Source: Streptococcus himalayensis (lineage in GTDB: Bacteria > Bacillota > Bacilli > Lactobacillales > Streptococcaceae). Taken from it: a stretch of DNA of 64,000 nucleotides. Within the stretch, counting starts at the first letter, position 1; each line of letters starts with the position of its first letter. Position numbers and translations under genes: made by a program. Under the pieces are notes generated by a model. It saw only the letters and a list, made by a program, of their open reading frames with translations, was not told where the DNA came from and did no database searches. Positions 3,895-12,327 of the stretch are shown piece by piece. The stretch covers positions 1,197,501 to 1,261,500 of the forward strand of contig NZ_CP016953.1 in NCBI RefSeq assembly GCF_001708305.1, read 5' to 3'.

Positions 3895-3924
3895 TGTAAC
3901 CAAAAGTGATTTCATTCGTTTTAT
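3895..3924 (+). promoter_or_regulatory. ECF-type promoter of sigma/anti-sigma cassette 1
   Basis: CTGTAACC (TGTAACC at 3895-3901), 15 bases, then CGTTTTAT (3917-3924). The same two blocks, with a 16-base spacer, lie in front of the paralogous cassette at 5581-5611. A -35 with AAC and a -10 starting CG are typical of ECF sigma factors. That each sigma factor reads its own or the other's promoter is inference. Confidence 0.6.
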
Positions 3925-3945
3925 TGATGAAAGGAGGGGAGAAAC

Positions 3946-4443
3946 ATTCGATTTGATGAGTATGAAAAGGAAGTGATGGAGATTGCTCGGGAAATTTCTT
4001 ATTATTTGCAAAAGTCTGGCGCCACTCAGGCAGATAGTGAGGATATTGCTCAAGATGTGCTAGTGCGCATTCTCGAAGCGGATTTGGTTCTTCCCTTTGA
4101 GAAATTAAGGGCCTGGCTCTATCGAACTGCTATTCATGCCTACATTGATAAATATAGGCGAGATAGGCAGTATCATGATATTCTCCAACGTGAGTTTTTT
4201 CATAAAGATAAATTGCTCAAATACGATACGAAAGATTATGCAGAACTCTACCAAGCTGTGGCAGAATTGCCTGCGAAGTTTCAACTGGTGATTGATTGTT
4301 ATTATTTTCAGGATATGACAGTCAAGGAAACAGCTCAAATTTTGGGCAAGAGTCAAAGCTGGGTCAAGATTAATCTGTATCGTAGTCGTAAACAATTAGC
4401 CAGCTTGCTACAAGAGAAAGGATACGAATATGAAGACATTTGA
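3946..4443 (+). CDS. ECF-type RNA polymerase sigma factor, paralogue 1
   Basis: This small sigma-70-family protein has only regions 2 and 4. Region 2 is near residues 10-75 (DSEDIAQDVLVRI, RAWLYRTA, IDKYRRDR). Region 4 is near 110-158 (LPAKFQLVIDCYY, then the helix-turn-helix KETAQILGKSQSWVKINLYRSR). It presumably directs core polymerase to a small regulon. The conventional start, GTG at 3973, has a poor ribosome site and loses the conserved FDEYEKE segment. A strong AAGGAGGGG at 3931-3939 points instead to ATT at 3946, giving 165 residues, exactly the length of the paralogue when read from its ATC. The 3' end overlaps the downstream anti-sigma gene by 14 nt, implying coupled synthesis. The rare start codon is inference. 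Confidence 0.82.
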   Translation: MRFDEYEKEVMEIAREISYYLQKSGATQADSEDIAQDVLVRILEADLVLPFEKLRAWLYRTAIHAYIDKYRRDRQYHDILQREFFHKDKLLKYDTKDYAELYQAVAELPAKFQLVIDCYYFQDMTVKETAQILGKSQSWVKINLYRSRKQLASLLQEKGYEYEDI

Positions 4444-5551
4444 AATCGCAACGAAAAAAAGCAAGAGGAAAACGCTCCTAAAAACCGTCGGGTTTTCCAC
4501 GGTGGGAACCCTAACTTTCCTCGTCGGAGGATATCTGCTTCTCAATAAAATAACCTCAGAGAATGCTTGGAAGATGGAACGATTCTATGAGATGAAATCA
4601 AGCATTAGTTACCCCAATATTCAAGCCATCGATTGGTCCTTTGATGCGAGTTCCCAATTCAGTGGGACATTTCGAGCTAATCAGGTCAAGGACATAGCTG
4701 GGATTTCGGTTCCCTTTGAGCCGTATACTGGAAATTATAGTCTTAGCCCAAGAGTAGTTGGCGGACGGCAGGACATGAATCTCTATCAGACCAAAGATGG
4801 CAAGGCTAGTTATACCCATGGGCACAGTTATAAATCTCCGATGTTCTTCAATCGGGAGTATGATTATCGTAAAAACAAGGAATACGGTTCGAACTTAACT
4901 CAAGATATTGCTCTTTTGCCTCAAATGACAGGAAAGGCAGTTGAAGTTGCCGTAACCTTTGACAAACCCTATACCTTTGAAGAAATCGCCTCGATGATTC
5001 CTGAAACTCTAAAAATCAACTGGTACTGGATTGGCACTAGCAGTTCCTACAATACAGGGGATTTAGATGTGGACGATCAAATCGGTTTTACACCGAATTT
5101 GGAACAAACCCAGACAAAAGAGGAGTTAGAAAGAGAACAACAGGACTTTTCCAAGAAAAATGAAAAAGCTTCTACTGAGGAAGGAGAAAAACGATACCAA
5201 GAACATCTGAAACGCTTGGCAGAACAAGATGTAGTGAAACGTTTTGAAAATAGTTATACCACTTTTTACGACAATCTCCAAAAGGTGGTAGCAGAAGACT
5301 GGCAAAGCACCCGAACTGCATCCGATGGTTCACGGTTTGATTTGAAAGCTGATATTGAAAGCTATCTAAAAAACAATCCAGATGGGAGAAAAGCGAAATT
5401 TGCAGGTCTAATCCTGACTGGCAAAGCAGAAGATTTTGCCCCTCTTGAAAAGGCGAACTGGATTTTTGGTTCAAATATTGGACAAAGCATCGCTTTAGAA
5501 CCTTACCATCAATTGGATACACGACATGACCCAACACTTCCTCAAAAATAG
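4430..5551 (+). CDS. Membrane anti-sigma factor-like protein, paralogue 1
   Basis: This 373-residue protein has a short basic cytoplasmic N-terminus (about 1-16), one membrane helix near 17-38 and a large extracellular part. The arrangement and the sigma-gene overlap match the Sigma_reg_N/Sigma_reg_C type of Firmicute sigma regulators, which hold an ECF sigma at the membrane until a signal arrives. Conserved blocks shared with the second copy are TFEIA.KK, VEVA.TFD.PY, LK.NW.W.GT and AKFAG.ILTGKAE.FA. This copy has an extra charged, lysine/glutamate-rich insert at about 225-275. The start is supported by AAAGGA 7 nt upstream inside the sigma gene. The signal sensed is unknown. Confidence 0.72.
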   Translation: MKTFEIATKKSKRKTLLKTVGFSTVGTLTFLVGGYLLLNKITSENAWKMERFYEMKSSISYPNIQAIDWSFDASSQFSGTFRANQVKDIAGISVPFEPYTGNYSLSPRVVGGRQDMNLYQTKDGKASYTHGHSYKSPMFFNREYDYRKNKEYGSNLTQDIALLPQMTGKAVEVAVTFDKPYTFEEIASMIPETLKINWYWIGTSSSYNTGDLDVDDQIGFTPNLEQTQTKEELEREQQDFSKKNEKASTEEGEKRYQEHLKRLAEQDVVKRFENSYTTFYDNLQKVVAEDWQSTRTASDGSRFDLKADIESYLKNNPDGRKAKFAGLILTGKAEDFAPLEKANWIFGSNIGQSIALEPYHQLDTRHDPTLPQK

Positions 5552-5570
5552 CGAGGAATATGATAAAATA

Positions 5571-5603
5571 AAACTAGGCCTGTAACCTTTACGGGTCTAG
5601 TTT
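5571..5603 (+). terminator. 15-bp hairpin between the two sigma/anti-sigma cassettes
   Basis: Two 15-base arms pair throughout, with two G-U wobbles and a 3-base CCT loop. The T tract after it is poor (TTTCGTT). It begins 19 bases after the anti-sigma 1 stop and contains the TGTAACC box of the next promoter, so it could be a terminator, an attenuator, or a cruciform overlapping the promoter. Confidence 0.55.
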
Positions 5604-5611
5604 CGTTATAT
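5581..5611 (+). promoter_or_regulatory. ECF-type promoter of sigma/anti-sigma cassette 2
   Basis: CTGTAACC (TGTAACC at 5581-5587), 16 bases, then CGTTATAT (5604-5611). This matches the site in front of cassette 1. The -35 block lies inside the preceding hairpin. Confidence 0.6.
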
Positions 5612-5634
5612 GAGTGAAGAAGGGAGGGAGCGTT

Positions 5635-6132
5635 ATCAAACTAGATGAATACGAAAGGGTCTTAGCTGACTTTGCCAGAGACATCATCTATTATTTGATG
5701 AAATCAGGCGTAAAAAAAGAGCAAGCAGAAGATGTCGTTCAGGATATCTTTGTCAAAATGCTGGAAATGCCTGTTGCCATCCCTGGTGAGAAGATACGGG
5801 CTTTCATGTATCGGTCTGCTATTCGCCGCTATATCGACAAGTACCGCAGGGACAAGCGTTATATGGAAATTTTACAACAGGAATTTTTTCATTCGCAACC
5901 GCTCTCTCCCTTTGAGTGTGATCAGTACGATTTTTTGCTGGAAGAAGTAGAGAAGCTCTCGCCAGAAGATAGACTGCTCCTTGATCTCTTTTATGTTCAA
6001 GGTTTTTCAATTCTTGAAATAGCAGAGCTTCTTGCTTATTCCCTCAGTAAAGTCAAAGTAAAGCTGCACCGCAGTCGACAAAAGTTAAAGAAATCTCTCA
6101 AACAGAAAGGATATGAACATGGAAACATTTGA
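5635..6132 (+). CDS. ECF-type RNA polymerase sigma factor, paralogue 2
   Basis: This protein is paralogous to the product at 3946-4443 and has the same two sigma regions: AEDVVQDIFVKML with RRYIDKYRRDKRY, and LSPEDRLLLDLFY followed by the helix-turn-helix LEIAELLAYSLSKVKVKLHRSR. The only conventional start nearby, GTG at 5614, would place the ribosome site AGGGAGG (5621-5627) inside the coding region. Starting at ATC 5635, 7 nt after that site, gives 165 residues and aligns IKLDEYE with IRFDEYE of paralogue 1. The stop overlaps the next gene by 14 nt, as in cassette 1. The repertoire of targets cannot be read from this window beyond the two shared upstream motifs. Confidence 0.82.
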   Translation: MKLDEYERVLADFARDIIYYLMKSGVKKEQAEDVVQDIFVKMLEMPVAIPGEKIRAFMYRSAIRRYIDKYRRDKRYMEILQQEFFHSQPLSPFECDQYDFLLEEVEKLSPEDRLLLDLFYVQGFSILEIAELLAYSLSKVKVKLHRSRQKLKKSLKQKGYEHGNI

Positions 6133-7096
6133 AATATTGGCGAAGAAAGCTAGAAAACGGACAGGAAGACGAATGTTATTCACTACTTTGTCTGTTCTTT
6201 TTGCCTGTTTCATCATATATGCAGGTCTAATGTTTGTATCAGGAAAATTATTAAATCGAAATTTTCAAAAATTGATTGTCTATTATGATCAACGGATGAC
6301 CATTGCATATCCAAATATTTATATGAAAAGCAATTCGAGACCCAATGGTCGTTTTTCAGCAGCCTATCATATAGAGAGAATAAAAGATATAGATGGAGTG
6401 GAAATTCCCTATCCTCCTTTAAGGGCCACTGCCAGTCTGTTTGATACCCATCTTGACCACACTGGAGATGGGACGATTTATCAAGCCTTTCGTGATCCTG
6501 TCACCAATAGATTTTATAGCAACCAAAGTAAAGATAGAAATCCTGCATTTTTCAATGTTCAGGCAGATTGGAATAAAAAACATTCAGGAAAACCCAGTCA
6601 AGAGTTAGAATTAACCAGAGAAATGGAAGGGCAGTTAGTAGAAGTTGCTTTGACCTTTGATCAACCCTATTCCTATCAAGAATTACAGGAAATGCTGCCA
6701 GAAAATCTCAAGCAGAATTGGTTTTGGATGGGAACAACAAACAAGGAGCAGGATTTTGCTTTTGACTTGACAGATATTTATGGACTTAGTTTTCGTTATA
6801 AAGTGCTAGAAATGAATTATAGTCAATTTATAGAGAAAGTCAAAGGCGCATTGAAAGATCCTCGCTATAAAACAATGACAACCTATGGAGGCAGTGGAGA
6901 AACGTTTTCAAATTACGATGATTTGGAATTTATAAAAGAACATTACCCTACCTTAGAAAAGGCTAAGTTTGCAGGTGTCATCCTAACAGGCAAGGCAGAG
7001 AATTTCGCTCAGTTAGAAGGTAAAGATTGGATTTTTGCTTCCAGTATTGGAACTTCCATTCCAAATCAGCCCTATTATCACTTGGATAAAGAATAA
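6119..7096 (+). CDS. Membrane anti-sigma factor-like protein, paralogue 2
   Basis: This 325-residue bitopic membrane protein has a basic N-terminus, a membrane helix near residues 18-40 and an extracellular C-terminal domain. It has the same blocks as paralogue 1 (TFEILAKKARKRT, VEVALTFDQPYSY, LKQNWFWMGT, AKFAGVILTGKAENFA) but lacks that copy's charged insert. Two in-frame ATGs occur, at 6113 and 6119. I chose 6119 because AAAGGA lies 7 nt upstream and the protein then begins METFEIL, matching MKTFEIA. It probably sequesters the sigma factor encoded just upstream. No N-terminal zinc-binding anti-sigma motif is visible. Confidence 0.72.
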   Translation: METFEILAKKARKRTGRRMLFTTLSVLFACFIIYAGLMFVSGKLLNRNFQKLIVYYDQRMTIAYPNIYMKSNSRPNGRFSAAYHIERIKDIDGVEIPYPPLRATASLFDTHLDHTGDGTIYQAFRDPVTNRFYSNQSKDRNPAFFNVQADWNKKHSGKPSQELELTREMEGQLVEVALTFDQPYSYQELQEMLPENLKQNWFWMGTTNKEQDFAFDLTDIYGLSFRYKVLEMNYSQFIEKVKGALKDPRYKTMTTYGGSGETFSNYDDLEFIKEHYPTLEKAKFAGVILTGKAENFAQLEGKDWIFASSIGTSIPNQPYYHLDKE

Positions 7097-7218: not shown

Positions 7219-8415
<1,197 letters not shown>

Positions 8416-9477: not shown

Positions 9478-9507
9478 ATAGCTATAAATAAAAAAATGGA
9501 GAGCCTC

Positions 9508-12327
9508 ATGAAAACCAAAGGAATGATTTATCTAGCAAGCACTGCTATTTTACTTGCAGCCAGTGGACAAGCATTAGCAGATGAAGTTGTGCCTAATGCC
9601 GCCTCGAGAGATCAAGTGATCGATTTAGGACCTGAAATTTCAAATCAGCCATCAAGTTCTAGAGCAGTAGTGGCAACAAATCCAACTGCGATTTCTGCGA
9701 ATGTAACCAGAGTGACTCCTAAGTCAACGGTTACACCTGTCACAACAACTGTTGACAAAAGTTCGACTGTTGGGTCTGCTTCTGCAACAACTATTAATTC
9801 AGTTGCTCCCGCTGTGTCAAGACAAACTCAGCCAGTAGAAAGAGCCTCTACTTTTGTTGATGTAAGTAGTCATAATGATTATATTAGCAAAGATGACTAT
9901 CAGGAACTGGGACGTCAAGGCGTTGGTGGAGTCGTTGTTAAGCTAACGGAAGGAACAACTTATAAAAATCCTTATGCAACATCACAAGTAAGAAATGCAC
10001 AAGCTGCAGGTTTACAAGTATCAGTCTATGCTTTTTCTCATTATACGAACGAGACAGAAGCTCGTAGAGAGGCCCAATATTTTGCAAATCAAGCAAAAAG
10101 TTTAAATCTTCCTTTAAATACCGTTATGGTCAATGATATAGAAGATCCGAAAATGAGATCAAATATCAATGCTGCCACTCAAGCCTGGGCAAATGAGATG
10201 AGAAGACTTGGTTTTTCAAATCTTATGTATTATACGAGTGCAAGCTGGCTTGATCGTAATAATCTGGGGATAAAAGGCCCTGTTCAAACGTCTCGTTTTG
10301 GGATAGAAAACTTCTGGGTAGCACAATATCCACGACCTAAGTTGTCGGCAGAAGAGGCTAATAGAATGCGTTATCACAATAATGCTGGAGCTTGGCAATT
10401 TACTTCTCAGGCCCAATTATTAGCAGGCAAGCACGTATTTGATCAAAGCGTGGATTATACTGGTCGATTTACCTCTCGTTCATCTACATCAGTTCGACCT
10501 CTGAGTGGAAATATTTCTATTCAAAATCACACAGGTTCTGCTTTTGACATAGTTGTAACGAATGTTTCAGCTCCAGCAGGAGTTCGAGAAGTTAAGATTC
10601 CTGTATGGCCAGCGGGTAAGGGAGATTCCTTAGTATGGTATAGTGCGACGCCTCAAGGGAATGGTAGTTATAAAGTTCATGTAGATCCAAGTCGACATAA
10701 CAATCATACAGGAAAATACTACATTGACTTGTATTATGTTCAACAAAATAATCAACGAATTTACGCAGGTGGAACGACAACAAACGTTCAAAAATCGACT
10801 CCAGCGACAACTCCGTCTGGTAAATTGGCAATTTCAGTTACAAACCAAAATACCCAAACAGGGCATTTTGATGTTGTTGTCACAAATGTATCCTCTGGAG
10901 TTCGAGAAGTTAAGATTCCTGTATGGCCAGCGGGTAAGGGAGATTCCTTAGTATGGTATAGTGCGACGCCTCAAGGGAATGGTAGTTATAAAGTTCATGT
11001 AGATCCAAGTCGACATAACAATCATACAGGAAAATACTACATTGACTTGTATTATGTTCAACAAAATAATCAACGAATTTACGCAGGTGGAACGATAACA
11101 AACGTTCAAAAATCGACTCCAGCGACAACTCCATCTGGTAAATTGGCAATTTCAGTTACAAACCAAAATACCCAAACAGGGCATTTTGATGTTGTTGTCA
11201 CAAATGTATCCTCTGGAGTTCGAGAAGTTAAGATTCCTGTATGGCCAGCGGGTAAGGGAGATTCCTTAGTATGGTATAGTGCGACGCCTCAAGGGAATGG
11301 TAGTTATAAAGTTCATGTAGATCCAAGTCGACATAACAATCATACAGGAAAATACTACATTGACTTGTATTATGTTCAACAAAATAATCAACGAATTTAC
11401 GCAGGTGGAACGACAACAAACGTTCAAAAATCGACTCCAGCGACAACTCCGTCTGGTAAATTGGCAATTTCAGTTACAAACCAAAATACTCAAACAGGGC
11501 ATTTTGATGTTGTTGTCACAAATGTGTCCTCTGGAGTTCGAGAAGTTAAGATTCCTGTATGGCCAGCAGGTAAGGGAGATTCCTTAGTATGGTATAGTGC
11601 GACACCTCAAGGGAATGGTAGTTATAAAGTTCATGTAGATCCAAGTAGACATAACAATCATACAGGAAAATACTACATTGACTTGTATTATGTTCAACAA
11701 AATAATCAACGAATTTACGCAGGTGGAACGACAACAAATGTTCAAAACGATGGTAAATTAGTAGGGGTAGGCGGCACTAAAACAGCTGTGAGCTTGAACC
11801 AAGCACCGGCAAGTAAGCCCCAAAGAACAGCAACTTCAACAGATGCCAAATCACGGGTGATTGAGGCGGCAGCTTCTATGGTTGGAGTTCGCCATGGCAG
11901 TGCTCAACATCGAGCTTTAGTTGATGATTATAATAGTGTTAAACCATTGCCTGTTGGTTATTCAGTCAAGTATTCAGATGATTGGTGTGATGTTTTTGTA
12001 ACAACAGTTTTCCAACGTCAAGGACTTAGTCATTTGATTGGTCGTGAATGTGGTGTGGAACGTCACATCCAAATCTTTAAGCGTTTGGGTATTTGGAATG
12101 AAGATGGCCGAATTACACCTAAAGCAGGTGACCTCATAACCTTTAACTGGGATCAAAACCATCAACAAAATGATGGATTTGCGGATCACATTGGAATTGT
12201 TGAAAAAGTGGAAAACGGCTTTATTCATACTATTGAAGGAAATAGTGGAGATGCTCAAGTTGTGGCACGTAGAACTTATCGCATTGGAGATGGAAATATC
12301 CGAGGCTTTGCTAGTCCACGCTATTAA
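9508..12327 (+). CDS. Secreted modular murein hydrolase: GH25 - four Bsp-like repeats - CHAP
   Basis: This 939-residue secreted cell-wall hydrolase has a signal peptide at 1-24 (cleavage after GQALA) and then a Ser/Thr-rich linker to about 110. A GH25 muramidase domain at about 111-320 starts FVDVSSHNDYI and has the acidic VNDIEDP motif. Four Bsp-like wall-binding repeats of 106 residues span about 333-745. A C-terminal CHAP domain runs from about 780 to the end, with catalytic Cys in DWCDVF, His in ADHIGIVE, and EGNSGD. It should cut both the glycan strand and the peptide. Bsp repeats plus CHAP recall LytF, the competence-induced lysin of S. gordonii, and a cin box lies upstream. The start at 9508 follows GGAG by 6 nt; the ATG at 9496 overlaps that site. 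Confidence 0.9.
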   Translation: MKTKGMIYLASTAILLAASGQALADEVVPNAASRDQVIDLGPEISNQPSSSRAVVATNPTAISANVTRVTPKSTVTPVTTTVDKSSTVGSASATTINSVAPAVSRQTQPVERASTFVDVSSHNDYISKDDYQELGRQGVGGVVVKLTEGTTYKNPYATSQVRNAQAAGLQVSVYAFSHYTNETEARREAQYFANQAKSLNLPLNTVMVNDIEDPKMRSNINAATQAWANEMRRLGFSNLMYYTSASWLDRNNLGIKGPVQTSRFGIENFWVAQYPRPKLSAEEANRMRYHNNAGAWQFTSQAQLLAGKHVFDQSVDYTGRFTSRSSTSVRPLSGNISIQNHTGSAFDIVVTNVSAPAGVREVKIPVWPAGKGDSLVWYSATPQGNGSYKVHVDPSRHNNHTGKYYIDLYYVQQNNQRIYAGGTTTNVQKSTPATTPSGKLAISVTNQNTQTGHFDVVVTNVSSGVREVKIPVWPAGKGDSLVWYSATPQGNGSYKVHVDPSRHNNHTGKYYIDLYYVQQNNQRIYAGGTITNVQKSTPATTPSGKLAISVTNQNTQTGHFDVVVTNVSSGVREVKIPVWPAGKGDSLVWYSATPQGNGSYKVHVDPSRHNNHTGKYYIDLYYVQQNNQRIYAGGTTTNVQKSTPATTPSGKLAISVTNQNTQTGHFDVVVTNVSSGVREVKIPVWPAGKGDSLVWYSATPQGNGSYKVHVDPSRHNNHTGKYYIDLYYVQQNNQRIYAGGTTTNVQNDGKLVGVGGTKTAVSLNQAPASKPQRTATSTDAKSRVIEAAASMVGVRHGSAQHRALVDDYNSVKPLPVGYSVKYSDDWCDVFVTTVFQRQGLSHLIGRECGVERHIQIFKRLGIWNEDGRITPKAGDLITFNWDQNHQQNDGFADHIGIVEKVENGFIHTIEGNSGDAQVVARRTYRIGDGNIRGFASPRY
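10579..11746 (+). repeat. Four tandem 318-bp Bsp-like repeat units
   Basis: The phrase GGAGTTCGAGAAGTTAAG recurs at 10579, 10897, 11215 and 11533, a period of exactly 318 bases. Units are almost identical in DNA, including third codon positions, apart from the divergent N-terminal part of unit 1 and the end of unit 4. This indicates recent duplication or gene conversion. Confidence 0.95.

Follow-up and report, generated by a model that had tools for sequence, protein, structure and literature searches.

Tandem SigM/YhdL-like cassettes of Streptococcus himalayensis and the apparent AUU and AUC start codons of their sigma genes

Where does translation of a sigma factor gene begin when no usual start codon stands behind its Shine-Dalgarno sequence? 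The question is raised by a 64,000-nucleotide (nt) stretch of the Streptococcus himalayensis genome (contig NZ_CP016953.1, positions 1,197,501 to 1,261,500; hereafter the window), taken from a Streptococcus assembly of 2,275,471 bases in one contig. Two genes for extracytoplasmic function (ECF) sigma factors, sigA and sigB, lie here in tandem, each followed by a gene for a membrane anti-sigma factor. Judged from sequence, sigA appears to start at AUU and sigB at AUC instead of AUG, and a codon of this class (AUU, AUC or AUA, collectively AUH) occupies the same position behind a strong Shine-Dalgarno sequence in 95 of 108 uninterrupted streptococcal genes. We propose, with a probability of about 0.7, that each cassette is an autoregulated SigM/YhdL-like envelope switch in which a weak AUH start under-translates the sigma factor and leaves the anti-sigma factor in excess. 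The features of the two cassettes are as follows.

3895..3924, plus strand: ECF-type promoter A, TGTAACC-N15-CGTTTTAT, a motif match of the same type as found before homologues
3930..3937, plus strand: Shine-Dalgarno sequence AAAGGAGG of sigA, 8 nt ahead of ATT
3946..4443, plus strand: sigA, ECF sigma factor, with an inferred ATT start at 3946
4430..5551, plus strand: anti-sigma A, Sigma_reg_N plus Sigma_reg_C, with an ATG start and a 14-nt overlap with sigA
5572..5602, plus strand: terminator-like hairpin holding the −35 element of promoter B, predicted at −17.5 kcal/mol
5581..5611, plus strand: ECF-type promoter B, TGTAACC-N16-CGTTATAT, a motif match
5623..5627, plus strand: Shine-Dalgarno sequence GGAGG of sigB, 7 nt ahead of ATC
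5635..6132, plus strand: sigB, ECF sigma factor, with an inferred ATC start at 5635
6119..7096, plus strand: anti-sigma B, Sigma_reg_N plus Sigma_reg_C, starting at ATG 6119 (14-nt overlap) or ATG 6113 (20-nt overlap)

From the upstream stop codon to ATT 3946, the sigA frame contains no ATG, GTG or TTG, and the sole upstream in-frame canonical codon of sigB, GTG 5614, lies 5′ of the Shine-Dalgarno sequence. Both genes place a codon other than ATG, GTG or TTG behind a strong Shine-Dalgarno sequence at the conserved start position. An earlier note on this DNA had assigned 165 residues to each sigma factor. This length holds if ATT 3946 and ATC 5635 are the starts and fails with ATG, GTG or TTG starts (156 and 172 residues); the note passed over the non-canonical codons that its own reading requires. 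Its two tandem sigma/anti-sigma cassettes are borne out by the domain matches of all four proteins. Both sigmas score above the cut-offs for Sigma70_r2 and Sigma70_r4, contain regions 2 and 4 only, and exceed the TIGR02937 cut-off of 42.9 (64.3 and 57.8 bits), while both anti-sigmas match Sigma_reg_N and Sigma_reg_C above cut-off. The SigM subfamily cut-off was missed (TIGR02950, 64.7 and 87.9 bits versus 147.95), and we therefore refer to the cassettes as SigM/YhdL-like, not SigM. A whole-genome search with sigA at E ≤ 1 returned two copies. The 14-nt overlaps are also real, with sigA ending at 4443 and sigB at 6132 and the anti-sigma ATG codons beginning at 4430 and 6119, respectively; the second in-frame ATG of anti-sigma B, at 6113, would extend its overlap to 20 nt. 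Elsewhere in this genome, infC (L190) has an apparent ATA start behind AGAGGTGA, and initiation at such codons is therefore to be expected here.

Homologues were gathered by searching 97 relatives, with matches in 37, and by genus-wide motif and PF13791 searches; the flanks of each locus were fetched and the sigma genes aligned by profile. After setting aside L030, L031, L032, one fragment of L028 and the partial match L172 (likewise ATT), 112 distinct rows were kept. Codon 1 is ATC in 57 of them, ATT in 38, ATA in 3, ATG in 8, GTG in 4, CTG in 1 and TCA in 1, the last being L064, which has an ATG in the codon before. AUH codons thus account for 98 of the 112 rows, which include three interrupted genes and one outgroup, and TTG for none. 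The interrupted sigma copies, which carry internal stops, belong to some relatives only (L005, L028, L070); other genomes have intact copies. Outside the genus, codon 1 is GTG at all five Lactococcus loci and at two loci from Streptococcaceae metagenome-assembled genomes, and ATG in Leuconostoc and six lactobacilli (Levilactobacillus is among the taxa with GTG or ATG). Among 22 further loci of the order, codon 1 is ATG or GTG in 14, and ATT, ATC and ATA do not occur there. Neighboring genes start normally, with ATG for tuf in 49/49 and for tpiA in 24/24. Anti-sigma frames have a canonical start available in 107/107 cases, in 104 as an ATG no more than 30 nt before the sigma stop, in a profile-based check that scores the presence of a canonical codon and says nothing about its use. 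This check superseded a text-pattern control of the anti-sigma starts (ATG in 68/92), which had matched out of register.

A quick sigma tree of 120 rows with Shimodaira–Hasegawa-like approximate likelihood ratio (SH-aLRT) support, from which the three interrupted genes were excluded, separates 12 canonical outgroup rows from 108 streptococcal rows. The AUH label requires at least eight changes on this tree, four of them forced by starred branches, compared with a mean of 22.9 for shuffled labels (0 of 500 shuffles as low). The pattern fits one gain of AUH near the base of the genus followed by about seven returns, although the change count cannot separate gain from loss. The same variability would be expected if the AUH start were real and had no regulatory role, the strong Shine-Dalgarno sequence rendering the codon nearly neutral and free to drift: codon 1 does vary among ATC, ATT, ATA, ATG, GTG and CTG, with those eight or more changes. 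Drift should often have produced ATG, GTG or TTG, yet AUH is retained in 95/108 genes, TTG never occurs, and the partner anti-sigma has its canonical codon available in every one of the 107 frames. We consider an AUH start without a regulatory function unlikely, if still worth keeping in mind.

Several lines of evidence identify codon 1 as the start. The Shine-Dalgarno sequence sits at a fixed distance from it, with G at −9 in 111/112 rows and G at −13 and −12 in 96 and 98 rows, respectively. Within the codon, the first position is A in 106/112 rows and the second is T in 111/112; exceptions take the form of the classic near-cognates ATG, GTG and CTG and never of GTT, GTC, TTA or similar. Single-base differences were then scored in the 40 uninterrupted AUH genes that have no upstream in-frame canonical codon at all. 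In codons 2–7, 425 of 756 differences are synonymous (56%; 18% expected), compared with 107 of 448 in codons −4 to −1 (24%; 21% expected), and the shares across all 95 AUH genes are 56% and 20%. The coding sequence is under constraint from codon 2 onward, with no such constraint immediately before the start.

Other observations weigh against our proposal. In a rival reading, translation begins at an ordinary codon elsewhere (ATG at −6, a GTG within the Shine-Dalgarno sequence, or an internal ATG or TTG), in which case codon 1 would encode a conserved isoleucine. Protein databases place the start of this family inconsistently: of 120 listed proteins, 67 have their recorded start two codons upstream and 8 at codon 1, and at least 28 entries begin within the gene. 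One of these is sigA of the window, entered as 155 residues from codon 11. An ATG at −6, two codons upstream and 2 nt from the Shine-Dalgarno sequence, is present in 18 of the 98 AUH rows, and a plausible canonical codon at −3 in 3. In many genes an in-frame TTG or ATG follows at codon 10 or 11. Among the 41 rows that offer no upstream start, only 7 are also free of canonical codons ahead of codon 20, so that in most of them an internal start can be excluded only by the constraint and not for want of a candidate codon. Codons −8 to −4 show a synonymous excess in another frame (57% versus 23% expected), which we attribute to an artefact of the purine-rich Shine-Dalgarno sequence. We also weighed and discarded a short out-of-frame open reading frame that begins close to the presumed transcription start, as its signal sits in that same purine-rich segment. 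Finally, about seven lineages seem to have gone back to a canonical or near-canonical start, and a weak start is therefore not indispensable.

An ordinary start has to contend with the 41 of 98 AUH rows that offer no upstream in-frame canonical codon. In a further 21 the nearest such codon is a GTG inside the Shine-Dalgarno sequence, and in 15 it lies at −15 or beyond, at or 5′ of that sequence. Codons 2–7 are constrained even where no upstream start exists. Where codon 1 does not encode isoleucine, it is never GTT, GTC, TTA or the like, and the outgroups carry ATG or GTG at precisely this codon. The ATG at −6 is missing in close relatives that keep ATC (L024, L149, L179, L022); the group of 18 genes that have it may use it, and the start is ambiguous there. 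For the family as a whole, we find initiation at an ordinary codon distinctly improbable.

How, then, might an AUH start serve the cassette? The promoters, the gene architecture and the position and conservation of the start codon, as read from the DNA, suggest a switch of the following kind. Each sigma gene would be transcribed from its own ECF promoter into a short leader holding little beyond a strong Shine-Dalgarno sequence, and would be translated from AUU (sigA) or AUC (sigB). On the same message, with a 14-nt overlap, the anti-sigma would be translated from AUG. Weak initiation, of the class discriminated against by initiation factor 3 (IF3) at genes such as infC, pcnB and sigR, would keep the sigma factor scarcer than its membrane anti-sigma. 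With the sigma so short in supply, the self-activating loop would not turn on before an envelope signal had inactivated the anti-sigma.

Analogy with two systems suggests that AUU or AUC holds the sigma below its anti-sigma. In Streptomyces, SigR is kept scarcer than RsrA by an IF3-repressed GTC start, and the regulon becomes constitutive when that start is canonical (PMC5472188). The streptococcal cassettes resemble sigR-rsrA, as described there, in combining an ECF sigma that has a non-canonical start and strong Shine-Dalgarno sequence with a co-transcribed anti-sigma that has its own canonical start, in autoregulation, and in the anti-sigma excess proposed here (PMC5472188). They differ in that sigR starts at GTC, its anti-sigma is a cytoplasmic, redox-sensitive zinc protein, and the host belongs to another phylum; IF3 repression, established in that account for Streptomyces sigR, would apply to the streptococcal cassettes by extension (PMC5472188). 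In Staphylococcus aureus, reporter output from AUU and AUA starts is about 10% of that from AUG, and infC, ccpN and cvfC1 are Gram-positive examples of genes that start at AUA or AUU behind an extended Shine-Dalgarno sequence (PMC13009471). Unlike the cassettes, these are described as single genes and not sigma factors (PMC13009471).

The cassette itself belongs to a known kind; the conserved AUH start is new, with its direct precedent in another phylum. We found no published report of an AUU, AUC or AUA start in a streptococcal sigma gene, in a search that left most subscription papers outside its reach. If the under-translation reading is correct, Streptomyces sigR and a Streptococcus ECF family would have independently weakened the sigma start codon to obtain anti-sigma excess, and the choice of start codon would become a general element in the design of sigma switches. 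The family would be among the most widely conserved AUU/AUC-started gene sets described and, with its natural ATG, GTG and CTG reversions, a ready comparative system. An AUH start would also account for the several lengths under which the sigma gene appears in databases.

A second relative is the Bacillus subtilis SigM-YhdL-YhdK system. The PF13791 control search matches in B. subtilis a protein that we take to be YhdL, presumably the protein that defines the Sigma_reg_N plus Sigma_reg_C architecture, and both anti-sigmas of the window share this architecture. B. subtilis sigM has a canonical start, and the B. subtilis system responds to undecaprenyl-phosphate shortage. The cassettes lack a YhdK-like third gene, with sigB following anti-sigma A and tuf following anti-sigma B. 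In B. subtilis, as proposed for the cassettes, an ECF sigma is held by a membrane anti-sigma, and undecaprenyl-phosphate is an envelope cue for YhdL (PMC11081497). By analogy, the cassettes may respond to undecaprenyl-phosphate or to some other signal from the envelope, on which fold searches shed no light.

The motif TGTAACC-N15/16-CGTT(T/A)TAT, which the earlier note had placed before both sigma genes, is present at each, with a mean of 0.00 expected from 100 shuffles of the window. A relaxed form occurs within 260 nt upstream of the sigma gene in 108/112 rows and ends 22–29 nt before codon 1 in 79 of those 108, which leaves the leader room for little beyond the Shine-Dalgarno sequence. A strict search across the genus found 89 sites in 78 of 284 genomes (30 in the reversed control), with a pattern that misses the window's own two sites, whose ends differ. 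PF13791 is carried by 72 of the 78 genomes, though a few of these have their detected site somewhere other than at the sigma promoter, and the same promoter type precedes the sigma gene in several outgroup loci. These genus-wide results agree with the suggestion that the shared promoter type is kept with the cassette genes in relatives, and support two autoregulated ECF-type cassettes with a common promoter type. Within the window's genome, TGTAACN{15,18}CGTT gave 12 sites versus 20 in the reversed control and GTAACN{15,19}CGTNNTA gave 9 versus 39; by motif, only the two sigma promoters stand out.

Promoter B differs from promoter A in having its −35 element inside the hairpin at 5572–5602, which the terminator scan missed. 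Folding of 95 promoters gave nine, all of B type, with a −35 hairpin at −13.6 to −17.7 kcal/mol, and none of the other 86 folded below −5.8 kcal/mol. The hairpin may represent a fusion of the cassette A terminator with promoter B. In the sigma tree, sigA clusters with S. suis-type sigmas and sigB with the sigmas of S. cristatus, S. sanguinis and related species; an origin of the tandem by simple, recent duplication on the spot is therefore not supported. The duplicated pair of the earlier note, with possible cross-talk in a circuit for cell-envelope stress, if taken as a recent duplication in which the start codon is irrelevant, would suit the near-identical promoter elements, the anti-sigma family in common with B. 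subtilis and the further sites that precede envelope genes, but the different, old clades of the sigmas and the hairpin at promoter B with none at A make it very hard to sustain. Two neighboring cassettes occur in nine genomes (G000, G010, G041, G118, G165, G238, G322, G209, G304). The tandems of L120 (G209) and L121 (G304) look independent of the window's, and in G304 codon 1 of the second sigma gene is CTG.

The gene order in the window is ftsW, ppc, sigA, anti-sigma A, sigB, anti-sigma B, tuf and tpiA, the flanking names having been assigned by reading the proteins. One neighbor requires separate mention.

7219..8415, plus strand: tuf (EF-Tu), possible read-through target, 122 nt 3′ of anti-sigma B

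Contrary to the expectation that ECF-type sigmas are rare in streptococci, PF13791, the anti-sigma domain, is found in 106 of 284 Streptococcus genomes, usually in a cassette just upstream of tuf. A study of S. dysgalactiae subsp. equisimilis agrees, describing a putative ECF sigma/anti-sigma pair that is present in several streptococci and whose transcripts are more abundant in infected primate muscle (PMC12345147); judged by that description, the pair probably belongs to the same family. The tuf gene accompanies the cassette in 48 of 51 streptococcal loci (some species twice). The gap from the upstream gene to tuf measures 122–128 nt in 36 of 49 loci, where some of the upstream genes are not anti-sigmas. 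A scan of the gap between anti-sigma B and tuf for a terminator-like hairpin found none, and a crude terminator test before tuf was negative in 47 of 49 loci. At L118 (G251:C1:830000-836000), neither the sigma nor the anti-sigma gene is left, and the surviving ECF promoter stands directly upstream of tuf. In three streptococcal loci (L136, L140, L232), the cassette lies away from ftsW, ppc, tuf and tpiA.

A broader reading would make the AUH start a genus-wide governor: AUU, AUC and AUA starts would subject the envelope-stress sigma to initiation stringency through IF3, whose own gene, infC, has an apparent AUA start here, the start codon would sense ribosome state besides acting as a throttle, and read-through into tuf, the main conserved output besides the cassette itself, would tie cell-wall stress to EF-Tu supply. 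We regard this extension as speculative and doubtful.

As for other targets, extra motif sites in relatives lay inside an open reading frame in 11 of 15 scanned loci and were set aside as chance. An ATP-binding cassette (ABC) transporter operon (MacB_PCD/FtsX permease, ATPase and PASTA protein) follows an intergenic site in G023, G207 and G137. Of 284 genomes, 11 have the operon, and the cassette is present in 8 of these (Fisher p 0.022, with no correction for kinship); the gene start could be located in 7 of the 11 loci, 3 of these with the motif. The window's genome offers only a 29% match over 74 residues. At one locus (L110), a VanY-type carboxypeptidase with GBS_Bsp-like repeats stands behind a site. 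Besides the cassette itself, the ABC operon, the carboxypeptidase and tuf are the best candidate targets; they suit an envelope role without proving it. After tpiA, positions 9496–12324 of the window encode a wall hydrolase of 943 residues that combines a GH25 domain and a CHAP domain with four GBS_Bsp-like repeats.

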